Of a stretch of 64,000 nucleotides of DNA, positions 35,938 through 49,592 are shown in pieces; positions within the stretch are counted from its first letter, which is position 1; each line of letters opens with the position of its first letter. A program made the position numbers and the translations under genes. Under the pieces are notes generated by a model. The model was not told where the DNA came from. It saw nothing but the letters and a program-made list of their open reading frames with translations, and made no database searches. Source of the DNA: an uncultured Clostridia bacterium (GTDB lineage: Bacteria; Bacillota; Clostridia; Lachnospirales; CAG-274). Location of the stretch: positions 33,311 to 97,310 of the forward strand of contig CANRBC010000010.1 in the NCBI GenBank assembly GCA_947628755.1, written 5' to 3'.

Positions 35938-36215
35938 TTCTTTTTCTCCTCAAAAACAGTAGTAAAATACAATGACCACCGTATTGACCTCGTCAGCATA
36001 GGCATAAGCGCTGCTCCTTGTTTGGCTGACAGCCATAGCCATACCTCCGCATTCGGTCATATACATAAATATTATATCGCACCAACATGACATTTTCAAT
36101 ATCCTAGCAGACGTTTTGCAGATTTTTCCGCAAGATTGCTGAATATGATAACGCGACAGATAGAAAGAATCTCCCCTCCGAAAGCCTGTATTTATATGGC
36201 TTTCGGAGATTTTGT

Positions 36216-36440
36216 TCATAACTCCCACTCAATAGTGCCGGGTGGCTTGATAGTTATGTCGTAGACTATTCTGTTTATGCTTTTTACCTAGTTTACGATG
36301 CGTAATGTTCTGAGGGCAGACAGCACGGTAGACATTGTTGTCGAGCTGATATGAATTCTCCGGTGTCAGTTCCGCACTGCAGCAGCAAGGTCAAGGATAT
36401 TCGTACTACGCTTACGTTACGTACTCATAACCGACAGCTT
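36216..36440 (-). pseudogene. guaA (GMP synthase) 3' remnant
   Basis: Minus-strand [37 protein letters not shown] matches the GuaA C-terminus, with an in-frame stop. Confidence 0.75.
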
Positions 36441-39408: not shown

Positions 39409-39430
39409 AGAACCATGAAGGAGATTGGAA

Positions 39431-40555
39431 ATGCGAAAAATAATTACATTAATTATTACAGCCGCCTTGATAACAGCCTGTCTGGCAGGCTGCTCTCCAA
39501 AGGAAAATAATCCGGCGGAGGGGAAAAAGGTAGCGTATATCATGTATATGTCTTCATCGCCTATTTTTGAGATGTGGTCGGAGTCCTTTACGAAGACGGC
39601 GGAAGCCCTTGGCATGGAGGCGAACACTTTTTTCTGCGAGGACAGCGACGAGGAATGGAAAGACAGAATTTTGCAATGCGCAAAAGACGGCTATGACGGA
39701 CTGCTGGTGTCACATGGCGGAGAAGATTACGCGTGGGAATTTCTGACAGGCGTGCTAAAGGAATACCCAAATCTGAAAATAGCGACCTTTGACACCTCCT
39801 TCAAAAATGAAAAGGGGGAAACGGAAGCTATTGACGGCGTAGTACAGCTGTTTCAGCAGGATTCCGGACTTGCGGCGGCACTGGTGGAGGAGATACTTGC
39901 CATGTATCCTGACAAGGCAGCGAAAAACGAACCCATCAATATACTTCAGGTACAGGAGGAAAACTACATTGCCGCTTTTGACCGACGTCAGGTGGGCTAT
40001 GAGCCTTATGAAAATGAGGGGCGTATAAAAACCCTTGAGCAGATCGCTCCGAAGGAGCACTTAAGTCCTGTATCTTCCATGAAGGAAGCGGCAAAGAACG
40101 CTATCGCAAAATACAATGACGGTGAAATAGACGCTATATGGTGCTGCTATGACGCCTATGCCAGAGGAGTATATGAAGCCCTGCAGGAATTGGGCAGCGA
40201 CATTCCCATGGTATCGGTAGATATTTGTGACGAGGATATTCAGCTTATGTCAGAGGGCAAAAACTGGAAGGCATGCGCCACGACCAACTGGACTCTAAAC
40301 GGAGAGTTTGCCTGCCGTGTGCTGGCTTTGGAAATGGCAGGACAGTATGACGATATTAAGGCAGCTTCCTGCTATTATGAAGACCCGGGAATGTGGATGG
40401 AGATACCAACTGTGGTGGTAACTCAGGAGCAGGTTATGTCCGGACAGAATATTACGGTGAAAAATCTTTCGGACGTGGCAGAGGACGCCTACACGGACAG
40501 AAGCTATATGCCGTCTAATGACTGGATGGATTCTGCCCTTAAGGATATACAGTAG
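39431..40555 (+). CDS. sugar-type periplasmic-binding lipoprotein (Peripla_BP_4-like)
   Basis: Lipobox LITACLAGCS; VAYIMYMSSSPIFEMWSESFTKTAEALGMEA...DGLLVSHGG...IDAIWCCYDAYARGVYEALQELG. Confidence 0.85.
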   Translation: MRKIITLIITAALITACLAGCSPKENNPAEGKKVAYIMYMSSSPIFEMWSESFTKTAEALGMEANTFFCEDSDEEWKDRILQCAKDGYDGLLVSHGGEDYAWEFLTGVLKEYPNLKIATFDTSFKNEKGETEAIDGVVQLFQQDSGLAAALVEEILAMYPDKAAKNEPINILQVQEENYIAAFDRRQVGYEPYENEGRIKTLEQIAPKEHLSPVSSMKEAAKNAIAKYNDGEIDAIWCCYDAYARGVYEALQELGSDIPMVSVDICDEDIQLMSEGKNWKACATTNWTLNGEFACRVLALEMAGQYDDIKAASCYYEDPGMWMEIPTVVVTQEQVMSGQNITVKNLSDVAEDAYTDRSYMPSNDWMDSALKDIQ

Positions 40556-40591: not shown

Positions 40592-40888
40592 ATGGAAATT
40601 CAAAAAACATTAAATGGAACGACTTTAACAGTGAAGCTGGAGGGAAGATTAGATACAACAACTTCCCCTAAGCTTGAGGAGGAACTCATGAGCAGCGTTG
40701 ATGGTCTGACTTGCCTTGTGATGGATCTTGAGAAGCTGGAGTACATTTCATCTGCCGGTCTGCGCGTGTTTTTGGCAATGCAGCAAATCATGAGCAAGCA
40801 GGGTGAAATGATCGTCAGAAATGTGAACGAAACTGTTATGGACGTGTTTGACATAACGGGTTTTGCAGATGTTTTAACCATTGAGTAA
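40592..40888 (+). CDS. STAS-domain anti-sigma factor antagonist
   Basis: LTVKLEGRLDTTTSPKLEEELMSSVDGLTCLVMDLEKLEYISSAGLRVFLAMQQIM; conserved SSAGLR phosphosite. Confidence 0.95.
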   Translation: MEIQKTLNGTTLTVKLEGRLDTTTSPKLEEELMSSVDGLTCLVMDLEKLEYISSAGLRVFLAMQQIMSKQGEMIVRNVNETVMDVFDITGFADVLTIE

Positions 40889-40913
40889 GCTCTCTTTGGA
40901 GAGGAGGCATTAT

Positions 40914-43742
40914 ATGTTATACATACAGCTTGTATCGGCGGCTCTATGCCCTGCCATAGTGTCTGCTGTGTTCTATCAGTGCAATAAGTCAACAGGCTTT
41001 TCAAAGCTATCCGTAAAAGCAAAACAGGTTATATATGGCTTTGTGTTTGGACTGCTTGCCATTCTGAGCACGGAGTTCGGCTTTTTGGTAGATGGGGCAT
41101 TGATAAGCGCAAGAGATGCAGCTCCCTTATGCGCAGGATTGATTTTTGGCGCACCGGCAGGCGTTTTAGCAGGCTTTATAGGAGGCGCATGGAGATTTTT
41201 TGCGGCAATAAGGGGAGCGGGAGTATACACAAGCATCGGAGCAAGCCTTACCACCCTTCTTGCAGGATTACTTGGCGCTGCGCTGCGGAAATGGATGTTT
41301 GACAACAAGCGTCCTTCCTGGTATTACGGTCTGGCAACAGGATTTGTGGTAGAAGTGGTAAATATGCTTTTGGTATTCCTCATAAATATGGAGGATGTAC
41401 ACGAGGCATTTCAGCTGGTGGAAAAATGCACATTGCCGATGGTCGTACTGAATGCAGGGGCGGTGACATTGGCAATGCTTGTGGTATCCGCTCTGGCGGG
41501 CGAGTTCAAAAGAGTCCATAGAAATAACAGGTATCAGCTTGCCCAGACTTTTTCACGCTGGCTGCTTCTCTGCGTCGTGTTAGCATTTTTGGTGTCCAGC
41601 CTGTTCATATATGTACTTCAGACAAGGCTTGCCATGAGTGACGCAGAGGATATGCTCTCCCTTTATATTGAAGATGTTGTGGAGGACATAAACGACGCTT
41701 CGGACAACAATCTTTTGGAGCTGACAAGGGAGATAAAGGATGATATAGAAAAGAGCGGAAATTACGATGAAGGCGTTCTTTTCTCTCTGCTTGAGGAAAA
41801 CAATGTATCGGAAATAAATATAGTTGACGAAAACGGTATCATTATTGCAAGTACGACACCAGAATATGTTGGATTTGATATGACGAGCGGTGAGCAGTCA
41901 AACGAATTTATGGTTCTTCTTAACGGTGAAGAGGAGTTCGTACAGCCTTATCAGGCTATTTCCCATGACACGGGTGTTTTTATGAAATATGCGGGAGTTG
42001 TCCTGGATAAGGGCGGTTTTGTGCAGGTAGGCTACAATTCCGGACGGTTCCAGGCAGACATTGACGGACAGGTTGTGGGACTTACAAGAAACCGTCATAT
42101 AGGCGAAAACGGATTTATGCTCATAGCCAATGAGGATCTCCGACTTGTGAGCGACCCCAACGGAAATGAGGGTATGTCCCTTAATGTGGTAGGTATCAAA
42201 CTGCCGTCGGGCGCTTATTCCGAGGTAATCGGGAAAGGTCGGCAGATGTTCACGGAACCGGTTTTGAAGCAAAGCTGTTATGTGATGTATGTCGTTACGG
42301 AAGGATATTACATTATAGGCATATTGCCGAGATCAGAGGTCGTTTTTGACCGAAATATGCAATTATATACAACGGTATTTATTGAAATAATGGTATTTGC
42401 AGCTCTGTTCGTGTTAATCTACTTCCTTGTAAAGAAGCTGGTAGTAGAAAACATTCAGAAAATCAACCGCTCCTTGGAGGAGATAACGGGCGGAAACCTA
42501 AATGTAACCGTGGACGTGCGGAGCAACGAGGAATTTGTATCACTGTCCGACGATATTAATTCCACGGTGCATACATTGAAGGGATATATTGCGGAGGCTG
42601 CCGCAAGAATAGACAAGGAGCTGGAATTTGCCAAGACGATACAGGTTTCCACTCTTCCCTTTGTATTTCCTCCCTATCCAGACAGGACGGATTTTGACAT
42701 TCACGCCACTATGGATACGGCAAAGGAGGTAGGCGGAGACTTTTACGACTTCTATCTCCTTGACGAAAACCGTCTTGCATTTATGATAGCGGATGTATCC
42801 GGCAAGGGAATATCTGCGGCAATGTTTATGATGAAAGCAAAAACAGTTATCAAAAGCTATGCCGACAAGGAAAGCGACGTATCAATGATACTGACAAGAG
42901 CCAATGCGGATCTGTGCGAGAATAACGAGGCTAAAATGTTTGTGACCTGCTGGATGGGAATTCTGGATTTCAGGACACATACGGTATATTTTGCAAATGC
43001 CGGACATAATCCGCCCCTTGTCAAGCACAGTAACGGAGGGTTTGAATACCTTAAGGTACGCTCCGGCTTTGTTCTGGCAGGCCTTGATGGTATAAAGTAT
43101 AAAAGGGGCGAATTAAAGCTCATGCCGGGAGACGCAATATTCCTTTATACGGACGGCGTGACCGAGGCAACGGATATTAACGACGAGCTTTACGGCGACG
43201 ACAGGCTAAAGGCTGTGCTGGACAGTATGACGGACGCAAGCGCAAAGGAGATATGCTTGGGCGTGAAGCAGGATGTAGATGCTTTTGTGGGAGAAGCGCC
43301 TCAGTTTGACGATATGACAATGCTATGCCTTCGTCTTACGCCAAAGCAAAGCATAACGGTGGACCCGAGAGAGGACAATATGCAGGATGTGGTGTCCTTT
43401 GTGGAGGAGACACTTGTGGCGTCTGAAGTGCCTAAGAAAATAGCTATGAAGATGAACATTGTGACAGATGAGATATATTCAAATATACGGCGTTACAGCA
43501 GCGCAACAAAAGCGGAATTAGAGTGTACTGTCAGTGAAAGCAATATTACGCTGGTATTTGTGGACAACGGAAGTCCTTACAACCCCCTTGAGAAGGAAGA
43601 CCCGGATACGACCCTTTCTGCAGATGAGAGGCAGATAGGAGGGCTTGGAATTTTTATGGTAAAGAAAATAATGGATGACGTGGAATACGAATACTCAGAG
43701 GGTATGAACCGTCTGACACTTAAAAAGAACATAAAGATATAA
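40914..43742 (+). CDS. LytS-like 5TM / Cache-like / HAMP / SpoIIE PP2C phosphatase / GHKL ATPase fusion
   Basis: GFLVDGALISARDAAPLCAGLIFGAPAGVLAGFIGG (5TM-LYT); extracytoplasmic sensor; KEVGGDFYDFYLLDENRLAFMIADVSGKGISAAMFM (PP2C); C-terminal VTDEIYSNIRRYSS...FVDNGSPYNPL...GGLGIFMVKKIMDDVEY (GHKL). Confidence 0.93.
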   Translation: MLYIQLVSAALCPAIVSAVFYQCNKSTGFSKLSVKAKQVIYGFVFGLLAILSTEFGFLVDGALISARDAAPLCAGLIFGAPAGVLAGFIGGAWRFFAAIRGAGVYTSIGASLTTLLAGLLGAALRKWMFDNKRPSWYYGLATGFVVEVVNMLLVFLINMEDVHEAFQLVEKCTLPMVVLNAGAVTLAMLVVSALAGEFKRVHRNNRYQLAQTFSRWLLLCVVLAFLVSSLFIYVLQTRLAMSDAEDMLSLYIEDVVEDINDASDNNLLELTREIKDDIEKSGNYDEGVLFSLLEENNVSEINIVDENGIIIASTTPEYVGFDMTSGEQSNEFMVLLNGEEEFVQPYQAISHDTGVFMKYAGVVLDKGGFVQVGYNSGRFQADIDGQVVGLTRNRHIGENGFMLIANEDLRLVSDPNGNEGMSLNVVGIKLPSGAYSEVIGKGRQMFTEPVLKQSCYVMYVVTEGYYIIGILPRSEVVFDRNMQLYTTVFIEIMVFAALFVLIYFLVKKLVVENIQKINRSLEEITGGNLNVTVDVRSNEEFVSLSDDINSTVHTLKGYIAEAAARIDKELEFAKTIQVSTLPFVFPPYPDRTDFDIHATMDTAKEVGGDFYDFYLLDENRLAFMIADVSGKGISAAMFMMKAKTVIKSYADKESDVSMILTRANADLCENNEAKMFVTCWMGILDFRTHTVYFANAGHNPPLVKHSNGGFEYLKVRSGFVLAGLDGIKYKRGELKLMPGDAIFLYTDGVTEATDINDELYGDDRLKAVLDSMTDASAKEICLGVKQDVDAFVGEAPQFDDMTMLCLRLTPKQSITVDPREDNMQDVVSFVEETLVASEVPKKIAMKMNIVTDEIYSNIRRYSSATKAELECTVSESNITLVFVDNGSPYNPLEKEDPDTTLSADERQIGGLGIFMVKKIMDDVEYEYSEGMNRLTLKKNIKI

Positions 43743-43769: not shown

Positions 43770-45368
43770 ATGCATAGTATGATAAGCAACCGTAGTGAAA
43801 AATTCAATCTGTCGGAGCAGACCATCGATGATGTGTCCGCAATCTGTGTGCAGACCCTTTCCGAGGCAGAGGCGGATAAGAAGGATATTCTCCGCATACG
43901 CCTGTCCTTGGAGGAGATACTGGGCGCATGGCTTGTGTCCCTAAGGGGCGCTCCGGTCCATGTGGCCTGCGGAAAGAAATTCGGGCAGGTCTTTCTGAAA
44001 GTAAGCGTAGACGGTCCGGCAATGGGCGCCTGGGAGGATAACGAGGCATTGATACTCAGCAGCCACATGCTTTCTCAGGCAGGCCTGTCGTTTACATACG
44101 CTTATAAAAACGGAAAAAACTGTCTGACCTGCAATCCTCGTAAAAAATCGTCCATAGGGCAGATGGCTTTGCTTATATGCGCGGTCATTATGGCGGTCGT
44201 TCTGGGAGCCGTTGCAAGACCTTTTCCTGAAATTCAGACGGCTGCCCTTGCAGTCACGCAGCCCTTATTCGATATGATTCTGGGAGCGATACGCGCAGTT
44301 TCCTCTCCCATTGTGTTTCTGGCTGTATGCTGCGGCATCATCAGCATAGGTGATTTGACTGTAGTAGGAAAAATCGGCACAAAGCTGATTTCAAGAATGG
44401 TTGCCGTAACATTTGTTCTGGGAGGTGGTATGGCACTTGTAAGCTGTCTGCTGTTTCCCATCACCGCGGAAGCGGGAGGTGAAGTCTCGGGCAATTTTTC
44501 TAAAATTTATCAGATGGTGCTGGAAATAGTGCCTTCGGATATTGTGTCACCCTTTATTGACGGAAATGCGCTGCAGCTTGTTTTCATGGGTATATGCGTA
44601 GGAGCCGCCCTTTTGATATTGGGCGAGCGGGTATCGGCAGTGCAGGATACATTGCTGCAGGTCAACGAGGTCGTGCAGTTTCTTATGAGAGCACTGGGAA
44701 AGGCTATTCCGTTTTTCGTATTTTTAAGCTTGTTTAACCTTATGCTGTCCGATTTTGGCAGCGGGTTCTCAAGTCTTGTCAAGGTGTTTGCTATCACAAT
44801 ACCGGGTTTATTTATGCTGGTATTACTTTATGTACTTGCAGCGGCGGTGCGCCTTAAGGTCAGCCCGATAATGTTGATAAAAAAATTGCTGCCGACTTAT
44901 ATGATCGCACTGACTACGGCTTCTTCGGCTGCCGCCCTTTCGACAAATCTGGAGACCTGTGTAAAGGAACTGGGCATTCCCAAAAAGATAGCGGATTTTG
45001 CCATTCCGCTGGGACAAGTTCTTTACAAACCCGGCTTTGTAGTCGAGCTTTCTGTTATGCTTCTGAGCATGGCTGAGTATTACAGCGTTCCCATTACGCC
45101 GCAGCTCCTCATCATGTCAATTATAGTGGTAGGGTTCCTCTCTATGGCAGTGCCGCCTATCCCCGGCGGAGCGATTTCCGTATTCACCATACTGTTTACG
45201 CAGTTTGGTATTCCAAGCGGCGCGGTAGCTCTGGCGGTGGCGGTCAATGCAGTTCTGGACTTTTTTGTGACTGCTGCAAATCTTACCTGCCTTCAGGTAC
45301 AGGTGGCGTTCGAGGTATACGGCGTAGGTATGCTTAACGAAAAGAAGCTTAAAAAAGGTGTTTTATGA
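43770..45368 (+). CDS. dicarboxylate/amino acid:cation symporter (SDF family) with N-terminal GHKL-like regulatory domain
   Basis: About 130-aa N-terminal cytosolic domain RIRLSLEEILGAWLVSL...KVSVDGPAMGAWEDN...SFTYAYKNGKNCLTC, then SDF core FDMILGAIRAVSSPIVFLAVCCGIISIGD...ALTTASSAAALSTNLETCVKELGIPKKIADFAIPLG. Confidence 0.88.
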   Translation: MHSMISNRSEKFNLSEQTIDDVSAICVQTLSEAEADKKDILRIRLSLEEILGAWLVSLRGAPVHVACGKKFGQVFLKVSVDGPAMGAWEDNEALILSSHMLSQAGLSFTYAYKNGKNCLTCNPRKKSSIGQMALLICAVIMAVVLGAVARPFPEIQTAALAVTQPLFDMILGAIRAVSSPIVFLAVCCGIISIGDLTVVGKIGTKLISRMVAVTFVLGGGMALVSCLLFPITAEAGGEVSGNFSKIYQMVLEIVPSDIVSPFIDGNALQLVFMGICVGAALLILGERVSAVQDTLLQVNEVVQFLMRALGKAIPFFVFLSLFNLMLSDFGSGFSSLVKVFAITIPGLFMLVLLYVLAAAVRLKVSPIMLIKKLLPTYMIALTTASSAAALSTNLETCVKELGIPKKIADFAIPLGQVLYKPGFVVELSVMLLSMAEYYSVPITPQLLIMSIIVVGFLSMAVPPIPGGAISVFTILFTQFGIPSGAVALAVAVNAVLDFFVTAANLTCLQVQVAFEVYGVGMLNEKKLKKGVL

Positions 45369-45410
45369 GGAAAACAATGAAATTTTCTGAAAATAGAAGG
45401 GATGATATAA

Positions 45411-48143
45411 ATGAATAAAAGATTCTGTATTTGTCGGTTATTGACAATTCTTATTATATGTCTGCTTCTCGGGGGCTTTGCGGAGGCGGGCAAGTATGAT
45501 ATGGGCGGTATAGTTACGGTTGCCGCGGAAGGCTCCGATGAACCGGTTTATCAAAGCCTTCAGGATTTTTCCGGCAAAAAGGTGGGAATGATAACAGGAA
45601 CGGTTCAAGACCAGCTTCTTGACGGGGTTGTAGAAGGTACGATACACCAATATTATGATGATTTTTCATCACAGCTGCTGGCGCTGAGTACGGGAACACT
45701 TGATGCACTCATAACGGATATGCCCATAGCCGAGCTTGCTGCGGCGCGTCAGCCGGAGTTTGCAATATTCCCCGAAACCGTAGCGCCTGACAGCTACGGT
45801 CTCGGTCTTCAGAAGGACAGTCCGCTGACAGAGAAGGTAAATGCTATAATAAAAAAATACGAAAACGACGGTACCCTGCAGGCGCTTCGTGAAAAATGGC
45901 TTGGTGCAGACGAGAGCAAAAAGACAATAGACATAGGCGATTATGATGCGCCTAACGGTACCCTTAGATATGTTCACGATTCCACTCTTGAGCCTATGAG
46001 CTATGTGGGAGGAAACGGTCAGTCCCTGGGACTTGAGGTAGAGCTTGTTTCTCTTATAGCAAAGGAGCTTGGCATGGAGCTTGATATTACCCAGGGAACA
46101 TTCAATGCGCTTATTCCCATGCTTGCAAGCGGACGTGCCGATATTGTTTCCGGCTCCATAAGTATAACGGAGGAACGCAGGGAGAGTATTGACCTTACAG
46201 AACCCCACTACATAGGCGGAACGGTGCTTCTTGTCCGTGCAGAGGATATTGGAATAGCTTCAAAGCAGGAAAGCGGCAGCTTCCTCAGCGGCTTACACAA
46301 CAGCTTCAATAAGACGTTTATTCAGGAAAACCGTTGGAAAATGATACTTTCAGGTCTTGAGGTGACCTTTGCCATATCTGTATTTTCAGCGCTGTTCGGC
46401 ACTATACTGGGCTTCGGGCTGTGTCTTCTGCGCAGAAGCCGTTTTAAGGCGGTTTCCCGAATCACCGCAGTATTTATACGCCTTATACAGGGCATACCCG
46501 TACTTGTGCTGCTTATGCTTATGTTTTATGTGGTATTTGCAAGGGCGCAGCTTAGCGGTATAGTTGTTTCTATTGCGGCATTTTCAATTAATTTTGCGGT
46601 GTATGTGTCCGAAATGATGCGTACCGGCATAGATGCCGTTGATAAGGGACAGTGGGAGGCGGCTACGGCTATCGGCTTTAATCGTGTGAGAACATTTACA
46701 AGAATAATTGCCCCGCAGGCGCTTCGGCATATACTTCCGGTCTATAAGGGAGAGTTTATTTCCATGGTCAAGATGACCTCGGTTGTAGGATATATTGCGG
46801 TGCAGGATCTCACAAAAGCCACAGACCTTATACGCAGCCGTACCTTTGAGGCATTCTTTCCGCTTATAGCGTCGGCGGCTATATACTTCGTACTGGCATG
46901 GGCGCTGACCTCACTTTTGGGTATCGCCGAAAGGCGGACAGGTGCGAAAGCACGCCGCAAACATGCAAGCCGGCTCACAGCAATTATAGAAAGCGCCGAA
47001 AAAAGCCTTGACACAAAGGGCAAAACCGTAAATCCAACGAAGGAGACAGGCAGCGCGGAACCCGTTATTGCCATTTCCCATCTTAAAAAAGTCTATCCCA
47101 ACGTTACGCCTCTTGGAGATGTCAACGCGGAAATTTTTAAAGGCGATGTCATAACAATTATAGGACCCTCCGGCACAGGAAAAAGCACTCTGCTGCGCTG
47201 CGTCAACCGTCTGGAGATGCCCACAAGCGGAGAAATCAAGGTTTTTGGAAAGGATACTTCTGATAAAAAAGCGAATCTTAATCTGCTCAGGCAGCGCATG
47301 GGTATGGTGTTCCAGTCCTTCAACCTGTTTGGTCATCTGACTGTAATCGAAAATGTAATTCTTGCGCCTACTGTGTTAAAAGGCGTGCCAAGACAGAAAG
47401 CGCTCATTAACGGAATGGAGCTTTTGCGCATGGTGGGAATGGCGCAGAAGGCGGCAAGCTATCCCGACGAGCTGTCAGGCGGACAAAAACAGAGGGTAGC
47501 AATAGCCCGAACACTTGCCATGGACCCTGAAATCGTGCTTTTTGATGAGCCTACGTCAGCCCTTGACCCGACAATGGTAGGAGAGGTGCTTAGCGTAATG
47601 AAGCGGCTTGCTGCGGAAGGGCTTACCATGATGATAGTTACACATGAAATGCAGTTTGCCCGTGATGTTTCCACACGAATTTTTTATATGGACGAGGGTA
47701 TTATCTACGAGGAAGGTACTCCTGACGAAATCTTTGACGCTCCGAAGCAGGATAAGACGCGAGCCTTTGTAAAGAGGCTTAAAACCCTTACTCTTACTGT
47801 GGAATCCTTGGACTATGATTTTATCGGTATGTCTGAAAGTATACGTCAGTTTGGGGAAAAGAATCTGCTGTCTAAAAAGCAAGTGGAAAGGCTTCTCCGT
47901 GTGTATGAGGAAATTCTGGCACAGAATCTTGTTCTTACGAATAAAGCGGAATTTCCTATAACGGTTTCGGCAGAGTATTCGGAGAAGGAAGACAGTCTTG
48001 AAATGCGTTTTGCATGGCGTGGAGAGCGTTATGACCCTATGGAGGACGGCGACGAGCTTTCAATTATGCTTGTAAAGGCTTCGGTCAGTGGATTCAGCTA
48101 CGAGCATAGGGACGGCGCAAACAGCCTTGTAATAAAAATATAG
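45411..48143 (+). CDS. one-polypeptide polar amino acid ABC transporter (SBP-permease-ATPase) with C-terminal GHKL-like tail
   Basis: SBP_bac_3-type segments; permease [28 protein letters not shown]-like region; ATPase [53 protein letters not shown]; about 120-aa extra C-terminus ending [19 protein letters not shown]. Confidence 0.9.
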
Positions 48144-48186
48144 CATACGACAGAATGATTTTTGAAAGAGAGAGGTGCAAGGATTA

Positions 48187-49592
48187 ATGTTATCAATGGA
48201 AAAAATATTTCATGTAAGGGAAGCCGGCTCTACAGTGAAAACGGAGGTTCTGGCAGGAGTTACGACCTTTATGACCATGGCATATATTCTCATGGTCAAT
48301 TCCGGAATGTTTGCGGAGCTTCCGGGGGTGTCATACAACGCAATTTATATTGCGACTGCAATTTCCGCCTGTATCGGTACGATATTAATAGGACTTCTTG
48401 CAAATCTGCCCCTGGCACAGGCATCTGCCATGGGCTCCAACGCTTTCTTTGTCTATACGGTATGTCTTGGCTTTGGGTTAGGCTATGCCAATGCCCTGGT
48501 ACTTATTCTGATTGACGGCATACTGTTCATACTGCTTACGGTGACAGGGCTGCGAAAGAAAATATTTGAGGCTATTCCCACATCGGTAAGGGTGTCGATA
48601 CCAGCAGGAGTCGGACTGTTTATTGCCCTTATCGGGCTTAAGGATTCCGGCATAGTTGTGGCAGACCCCTCTACCTATGTCAACCTTGCATCCTTCAACA
48701 TTCTATTCGGAAATGTGGCGTGGAAGGATATTATGCCTATGCTTGTCACACTTTCCGCTTTAACTGCGATTGCGGTTCTGTCATGCAGGAAAATAAAGGG
48801 CGCTGTGCTCTGGGGCATACTTGGAGGAACGATTCTGTATTATATTCTTGGCTTTACTGTTTCCGGATTTTATGAAGGTTTTACAGATGATCTGAATTTT
48901 AACCCCTTTGTGGCATTTGTGGACTTTGGCACACAGGCGTTTGGCAAGGTTTTTACGGAAGGCTTTGATTTTTCGCCATATCTGGCAGAGCACAGCAGAC
49001 CGGAGCTTGCTATATTGATTGCGACAACTGCCCTTGCTTTCTGTCTGGTGGATATGTTTGATACCATAGGCACCCTGTATGGAGCCTGTGCCAGAGGAAA
49101 TATTTTGACCGAAGAGGGAGAAGTGCCAAACTTAGATAAGGCGATGCTTGCGGATGCATAGCTACCGTGTGCGGCGCAGTCTGCGGCACATCTACGGTAA
49201 GCTCTTATGTGGAGGCTTCCACAGGCATTGCAGAGGGCGGAAAGACAGGTATGGCTGCCATGGTGACGGGAGCGCTGTTTTTTGTCAGTATGTTTCTAAG
49301 CCCGATTGCCATGCTTGTACCGGGGTGCGCCACATCGGCGGCGCTCATATATGTAGGAATCATGATGATGAACTGCGCCAGAAATATAGACTGGCTTAAA
49401 ACAGAGGATGCGGTTCCGGCATTTCTGACTTTGGCAATGATGCCTATGACCTACAATATTTCTTACGGCATTGCCTTCGGCGTGATTTCTCATGTGCTTA
49501 TAAGCGTGTTTACCGGAAAGGCAAAGGAAGTAAAAGCCGGAACATGGATAATAGCGGCGCTCTTTGCCCTCATGTTCTTTGTGACACATTAA
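48187..49592 (+). pseudogene. NCS2/AzgA-like purine permease, split by an apparent 1-nt frameshift near 49158
   Basis: VREAGSTVKTEVLAGVTTFMTMAYILMVN...NLDKAMLADA* then next frame TVCGAVCGTSTVSSYVEASTGIAEGGKTGMAAMVTG. Confidence 0.88.

Follow-up and report, generated by a model that had tools for sequence, protein, structure and literature searches.

A degenerate RsbW-like domain on an SDF symporter and on other clostridial transporters suggests a partner switch that acts on transport

We found that an SDF symporter encoded in the genome of an uncultured Clostridia bacterium carries at its N-terminus a domain of GHKL ancestry, of the RsbW/SpoIIAB type, which is maintained by selection but, to judge from its residues, is scarcely able to bind ATP in the normal manner. 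Because this domain adjoins genes for a kinase, a phosphatase and a STAS protein, the analysis suggests that a sporulation-type switch here controls transport rather than genes. The reading that we favour, and hold to be somewhat probable though far from settled, is that the domain is a pseudo-RsbW docking domain and that the gene cluster forms a partner-switching system in which transporters, not a sigma factor, are the effectors. All positions below refer to the window, i.e. the whole stretch of 64,000 nucleotides that was analysed. The fusion protein and its parts are:

43770 to 45368, + strand: SDF symporter with an N-terminal GHKL-like extension (open reading frame of 532 aa; Pfam)
43782 to 44130, + strand: degenerate GHKL (RsbW/SpoIIAB-like) domain, aa 5-120 (profile comparison, fold, motifs)
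43911 to 43928, + strand: remnant N box (EEILGA), Glu49 kept and Asn replaced by Ala53
44172 to 45287, + strand: SDF transporter core, aa 135-506 (PF00375), with VLYKPG instead of the TM7 NMDGT

The SDF fold was recovered over the core (PF00375, E 7.7e-57, 193.5 bits versus a Pfam cut-off of 27.9), and aa 1-130 of the protein had no Pfam match. The first-pass annotation, made from the sequence alone, had described about 130 soluble residues ahead of the SDF core. This agrees with the about 125 extra N-terminal residues that we count: 9-63 residues precede the aligned SDF start in plain SDFs of the same bacterial family, and about 126-141 in the fusion family. The same annotation had set the domain at 43770-44170; the N-terminal extension is real, but the domain itself had to be narrowed to about aa 5-120 (43782-44130). 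Since over 45 related genes (24-95% identity) have extension and transporter in a single open frame, the fusion is real, and an assembly artefact was ruled out. In a tree of SDF cores, all the GHKL-bearing proteins fell on one side of a single branch (98% SH-aLRT, quick search), a placement consistent with a single gain of the GHKL domain.

When the window was compared with the related locus L031 around positions 44400-45450, the SDF core was 96-100% identical and the flanks, to which the GHKL domain belongs, were 83-93% identical. This marks a recent recombination tract, the edge of which falls a little way within the transporter core (dS 0.06 versus 0.45).

An alignment of 38 SDF-fusion extensions (A1) matched the HATPase domain of the adjoining phosphatase over 109 columns (hhalign probability 97.2, E 3.4e-11) and an independent set of 14 SpoIIAB/RsbW-type kinases (probability 96.4, E 1.2e-9), far above the controls: 30 column-shuffled kinase profiles reached at most 6.7, a reversed profile 0.1 and a STAS alignment 0.5. 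The profile-profile comparison with HATPase_c_2/RsbW thus bore out the GHKL similarity that had been read from the sequence in the first-pass annotation, and it independently recovered all three motif pairings with the phosphatase that had been drawn there. The AlphaFold2 model of the SDF N-domain (pLDDT 82, pTM 0.76) had the order strand-helix-helix-strand-strand-helix-strand-strand and kept a Bergerat-like fold. Its best PDB matches in Foldseek were SpoIIAB, UsfX and RsbW (TM 0.57-0.70), and all three of these top matches are STAS-binding kinases. In addition, a genome search with A1 picked up RsbW-like proteins that stand alone as well as the HATPase portions of PP2C proteins. As the profile comparison with its controls, the fold match and the genome search agree, we regard the GHKL ancestry of the SDF N-terminal domain, of RsbW/SpoIIAB type, as established. 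The relation showed only when profiles were set against profiles, in genome searches and in the comparison of folds; it was missed when single sequences were scanned with Pfam and when PDB sequences were searched with profiles. The curated Pfam score for HATPase_c_2 was not reached, the window domain having no match and 9 of the 38 relatives matching PF13581 weakly (best E 0.027).

We then counted the ATP-site residues in 35 representative SDF-fusion homologues that are <80% identical to one another. The N-box Glu was present in 33 of them (Asp in the other 2), and so were the G1 Gly and the C-terminal Asn (33/35 each). The N-box Asn was present in 4 and the G1 Asp, which is Val80 in the window protein, in 1; no G2 GxG loop could be recognised in the alignments of the 35 homologues, and the lid was usually short. 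Each of the 15 control kinases had Glu and Asn in the N box, Asp and Gly in G1, and the second and third glycines of G2. The first-pass annotation had proposed a pseudo-ATPase on the grounds of lost catalytic residues, and had named a lack of detectable GHKL similarity, or homologues with intact N, G1 and G2 boxes, as what would refute it. The similarity is detectable, as shown above; the counts support the proposal, for the three boxes did not occur together in any of the 35 SDF homologues. Its statement that the N-box Asn is replaced holds for the window protein (Ala53), but the loss is frequent, not universal, and Asn loss as the defining feature was ruled out by the 4 of 35 representatives that retain this residue. 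The window domain itself showed none of the marks of an active GHKL kinase that we looked for (N box E...N, G1 Asp-x-Gly, G2 GxG with lid). Since the ATP-site residues are lost across homologues, conventional ATP binding by the domain is hardly to be expected.

The dN/dS of the GHKL-like domain was 0.12-0.20, as against 0.11-0.21 in the transporter core, and this purifying selection shows that the domain is maintained and used. The possibility of a decaying remnant was ruled out by dN/dS and by conservation. In true kinases such as SpoIIAB the N-box Glu faces the STAS serine, and the G1 Asp reads adenine. The kept N-box Glu would fit a docking role, and we infer, without binding data, that the SDF N-domain serves binding and not phosphorylation.

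The neighbouring genes of the cluster, with their relevant domains, are:

39425 to 40555, + strand: periplasmic sugar-type binding protein (Peripla_BP_4, Pfam E 4.5e-10), the first cluster gene
40592 to 40888, + strand: stand-alone STAS protein of RsbV/SpoIIAA type (PF01740, E 2.2e-16), the proposed switch protein
40881 to 43742, + strand: membrane sensor with 5TM-5TMR_LYT, weak dCache/HAMP, SpoIIE-type PP2C and C-terminal HATPase_c_2 (Pfam)
43356 to 43739, + strand: intact GHKL kinase domain of the 40881 protein (PF13581, E 2.1e-15; alignment A3)
45411 to 48143, + strand: one-chain polar amino-acid ABC transporter (SBP_bac_3, BPD_transp_1 and ABC_tran) with a C-terminal GHKL-like domain
47790 to 48140, + strand: second degenerate GHKL domain, on the ABC transporter (hhalign, AF2, Foldseek)
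48175 to 49592, + strand: xanthine/uracil-type (purine-type) permease (PF00860) with a one-base frameshift near 49156

The cluster contains the parts of a partner-switching system, namely a STAS protein with its Ser motif, a PP2C phosphatase and a GHKL kinase, and lacks a sigma-factor target. In the STAS protein the phosphorylation motif SSAGLR is intact (NCBIfam TIGR00377 above cut-off). The SpoIIE-type PP2C (E 2e-53) is in the same chain as the intact HATPase_c_2, in which DEIYSN, DNG and GGLGIF are all present. The gene order with the binding protein upstream is conserved in many relatives. No sigma factor was found among the neighbouring genes; the genes that flank the cluster are those of a LytTR response regulator and its sensor on the upstream side and of an amidase on the downstream side, and the sole other PF13581 (HATPase_c_2) match above cut-off in the genome is SpoIIAB, which adjoins a sporulation sigma factor. 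The C-domain of the ABC transporter is homologous to the SDF N-domain (hhalign of A1 with A2, E 1.5e-10), was modelled with a pLDDT of 95 (AF2), and had UsfX and SpoIIAB-type kinases as its best PDB matches in Foldseek.

Three further observations concern the same genome. Measured against L032, the permease gene lacks one base near 49156, which splits it; the gene is whole in relatives, so that either an assembly error or a broken gene is possible. On the - strand, at 35953-36228, a frame of 92 aa is similar to the end part of the ABC GHKL extension of the other type (SQTRSSAYAYADEVNTVVIVF) and is possibly a remnant of a second ABC system. Contig C18 (L245:7309-8282) encodes a second STAS protein of the subfamily next to a protein of 198 aa whose family is unknown; no HATPase_c_2 match was found on this contig.

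In the window's lineage, a STAS gene lay ≤6 kb from the SDF fusion at 15 of 31 loci, and at none of 20 plain SDF loci. Several loci of this lineage (L035-L037 among them) had no STAS or PP2C in the cluster, and of the deeper SDF fusions from the order-level search 0/20 had a STAS next door. The rule that STAS is always next door was thus ruled out; it is true only in part of the window's lineage. At the level of genomes, 31 of the 34 that carry the SDF fusion had a STAS of the subfamily (E ≤ 1e-20), the other 3 having no close STAS; among related genomes lacking the fusion the figure was 5 of 28, with G000 and G008 excluded from this group because both carry it. This co-occurrence is suggestive: the counts were not corrected for phylogeny, the control genomes came from one family and the thresholds were set after the data had been seen. 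In several genomes without adjacency, STAS sat in its own cluster with PP2C or an RsbW-type kinase, and action in trans is therefore possible there; likewise, as the deeper fusions have no adjoining STAS, any partner of theirs would act in trans.

The GHKL-like module is mobile. Besides SDF symporters and amino-acid ABC transporters, it was found at the C-terminus of MATE transporters (L060, L113, L124, L125, L132) and at the N-terminus of ABC exporters (L110, L120, L121), i.e. on four transporter families. The MATE-borne domains are more intact, several of them scoring above the Pfam cut-off, and extended ABC proteins occur across the class. From established topology, we take every module-bearing transporter end to face the cytoplasm. 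Some of the module-bearing transporters cluster with STAS and PP2C (e.g. L113, L124, L250), and complete clusters of STAS, PP2C, RsbW-type kinase and MATE fusion exist (e.g. L250, L113). The ABC C-domain, the module on MATE transporters and ABC exporters, and the STAS and PP2C-kinase genes in the operon go beyond what the first-pass annotation had noted.

Many relatives, L040, L043-L045, L048-L050, L052 and L055 among them, have one or two extra GHKL-SDF paralogues (∼37% identity) directly downstream. A contig from a Spirochaetales bin (L051) carries a 67%-identical SDF fusion, a STAS gene, a binding protein and a second GHKL-SDF, which reflects either horizontal transfer or a binning error. 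Proteins of ∼200 and ∼400 aa that adjoin STAS genes (L123:7163-8359, L126:7322-8542, L127:6470-7699, L131:6923-7510, L251:6601-7188) match the GHKL-like domain weakly and belong to no Pfam family; they are perhaps further soluble members of the system.

In the mechanism that we propose, the membrane protein 40881 would sense an external ligand, perhaps brought by the binding protein 39425, and its PP2C and kinase domains would set the phosphorylation state of the STAS protein 40592. Unphosphorylated STAS would dock on the pseudo-kinase domains of the SDF symporter and the ABC transporter, and docking would switch transport on or off. STAS binding, its effect on transport, the sign of this effect and the signal are inferred; there are no binding or transport data. 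We are evenly divided on whether the scheme extends further, such that one STAS, toggled by the sensor phosphatase/kinase, plugs into pseudo-RsbW sockets on at least four unrelated transporter families and, jointly with this, provides a general post-translational control in Clostridia that coordinates SDF transporters, amino-acid ABC importers, MATE transporters and ABC exporters without transcription.

The main rival, which is unlikely in our judgement but not excluded, is that information flows in the reverse direction: the SDF protein would be a sensor whose substrate or flux alters the pseudo-kinase domain, which would then bind STAS or let it go, and the pool of free STAS would report substrate supply to the phosphatase/kinase or to another target. 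The same anatomy is compatible with either direction. In known SDFs, NMDGT and the TM8 Asp motif that follows it bind Na+. The GHKL-bearing SDFs comprise one subgroup with NMDGT and another without it, which includes the window protein, where VLYKPG stands at this site of TM7; the TM8 Asp motif is also lost in the SDF core of the window's lineage. These losses are expected if transport is reduced, and the window transporter may therefore couple differently or act as a sensor. However, NMDGT is intact in 13 other GHKL-bearing SDFs, which look like working transporters, and because it is also missing from some plain SDFs its absence is no proof that transport has been lost. Moreover, the ABC partner retains all transport parts.

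It is also conceivable, though quite improbable, that STAS plays no part and that the transporter is gated directly by the domain, through a nucleotide or some other small molecule that it still binds. In favour of this, the domain retains its Bergerat-like fold, conserved Arg/Lys residues (K30, R34 and R36 in A1) and the Glu could line a pocket, and the deeper homologues have no adjoining STAS; against this, the adenine-reading G1 Asp is lost in 34 of 35 homologues, there is no recognisable GxG and the lid is usually short. We find it very improbable that the domain merely serves structure or assembly (folding, oligomerisation or membrane targeting) without a signalling role. GHKL domains of the SpoIIAB/RsbW group do dimerise, and the domain is always at the cytoplasm-facing end, but it occurs at either end of four transporter folds with differing oligomeric states and, in the window's lineage, clusters with STAS and PP2C genes. 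That the domain is an active serine kinase for STAS is barely tenable despite the N-box Glu in 33 of 35 homologues and the Asn in 4, since the G1 Asp and GxG are gone and an intact kinase is already present in the same operon.

Partner switching is a textbook device for the control of sigma factors, and a few enzyme targets are known. With SpoIIAB, RsbW and UsfX (PF13581) the window domain shares the fold, the order of elements, the N-box Glu, the G1 Gly and the C-terminal G-x-N motif; unlike them, it lacks the ATP-binding residues, has no sigma factor nearby and is fused to a transporter. The RsbU/RsbV/RsbW and SpoIIE/SpoIIAA/SpoIIAB systems likewise combine a STAS protein with a phosphorylatable Ser motif, a PP2C and a GHKL kinase in one operon, but in the window the kinase is fused to the phosphatase and the proposed targets are transporters. 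SLC26/SulP proteins with a C-terminal STAS domain also have a partner-switching domain fused to a transporter; they fuse the STAS side, whereas the window proteins fuse the GHKL side. In SiaABCD of Pseudomonas, the STAS-type protein SiaC, itself governed by a kinase and a phosphatase, controls a cyclase (PMC8457831). The likeness is that a kinase/phosphatase pair sets a small protein and that an enzyme, not a sigma factor, is controlled, but the target, a diguanylate cyclase, is bound via its own stalk and not via a pseudo-kinase domain (PMC8457831). In MlaFB, the STAS protein MlaB binds and controls an ABC transporter, as we propose for STAS in the window, but it binds the ABC ATPase directly and there is no GHKL docking domain (PMC7367683). 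CapK/CapS is a GHKL kinase and STAS pair with a non-sigma output; it differs in having an active kinase and a repressor as target (PMC13373217). We found no literature report of SDF, MATE or ABC transporters that bear GHKL pseudo-kinase domains, although subscription journals and preprints were not covered.

If the preferred reading of STAS docking on transporters is true, the switch would directly govern nutrient uptake and export in gut bacteria on a fast time scale, and small soluble proteins could be used to test how these bacteria coordinate transport. Should dead RsbW domains serve transporters of unrelated fold for docking, this would be a clear example of a kinase fold that has come to act purely as a receptor. 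A practical experimental model is offered by Oscillibacter sp. MSJ-31, an isolate genome in which STAS, an SDF fusion and a MATE fusion lie in a row (L060:8638-12423).
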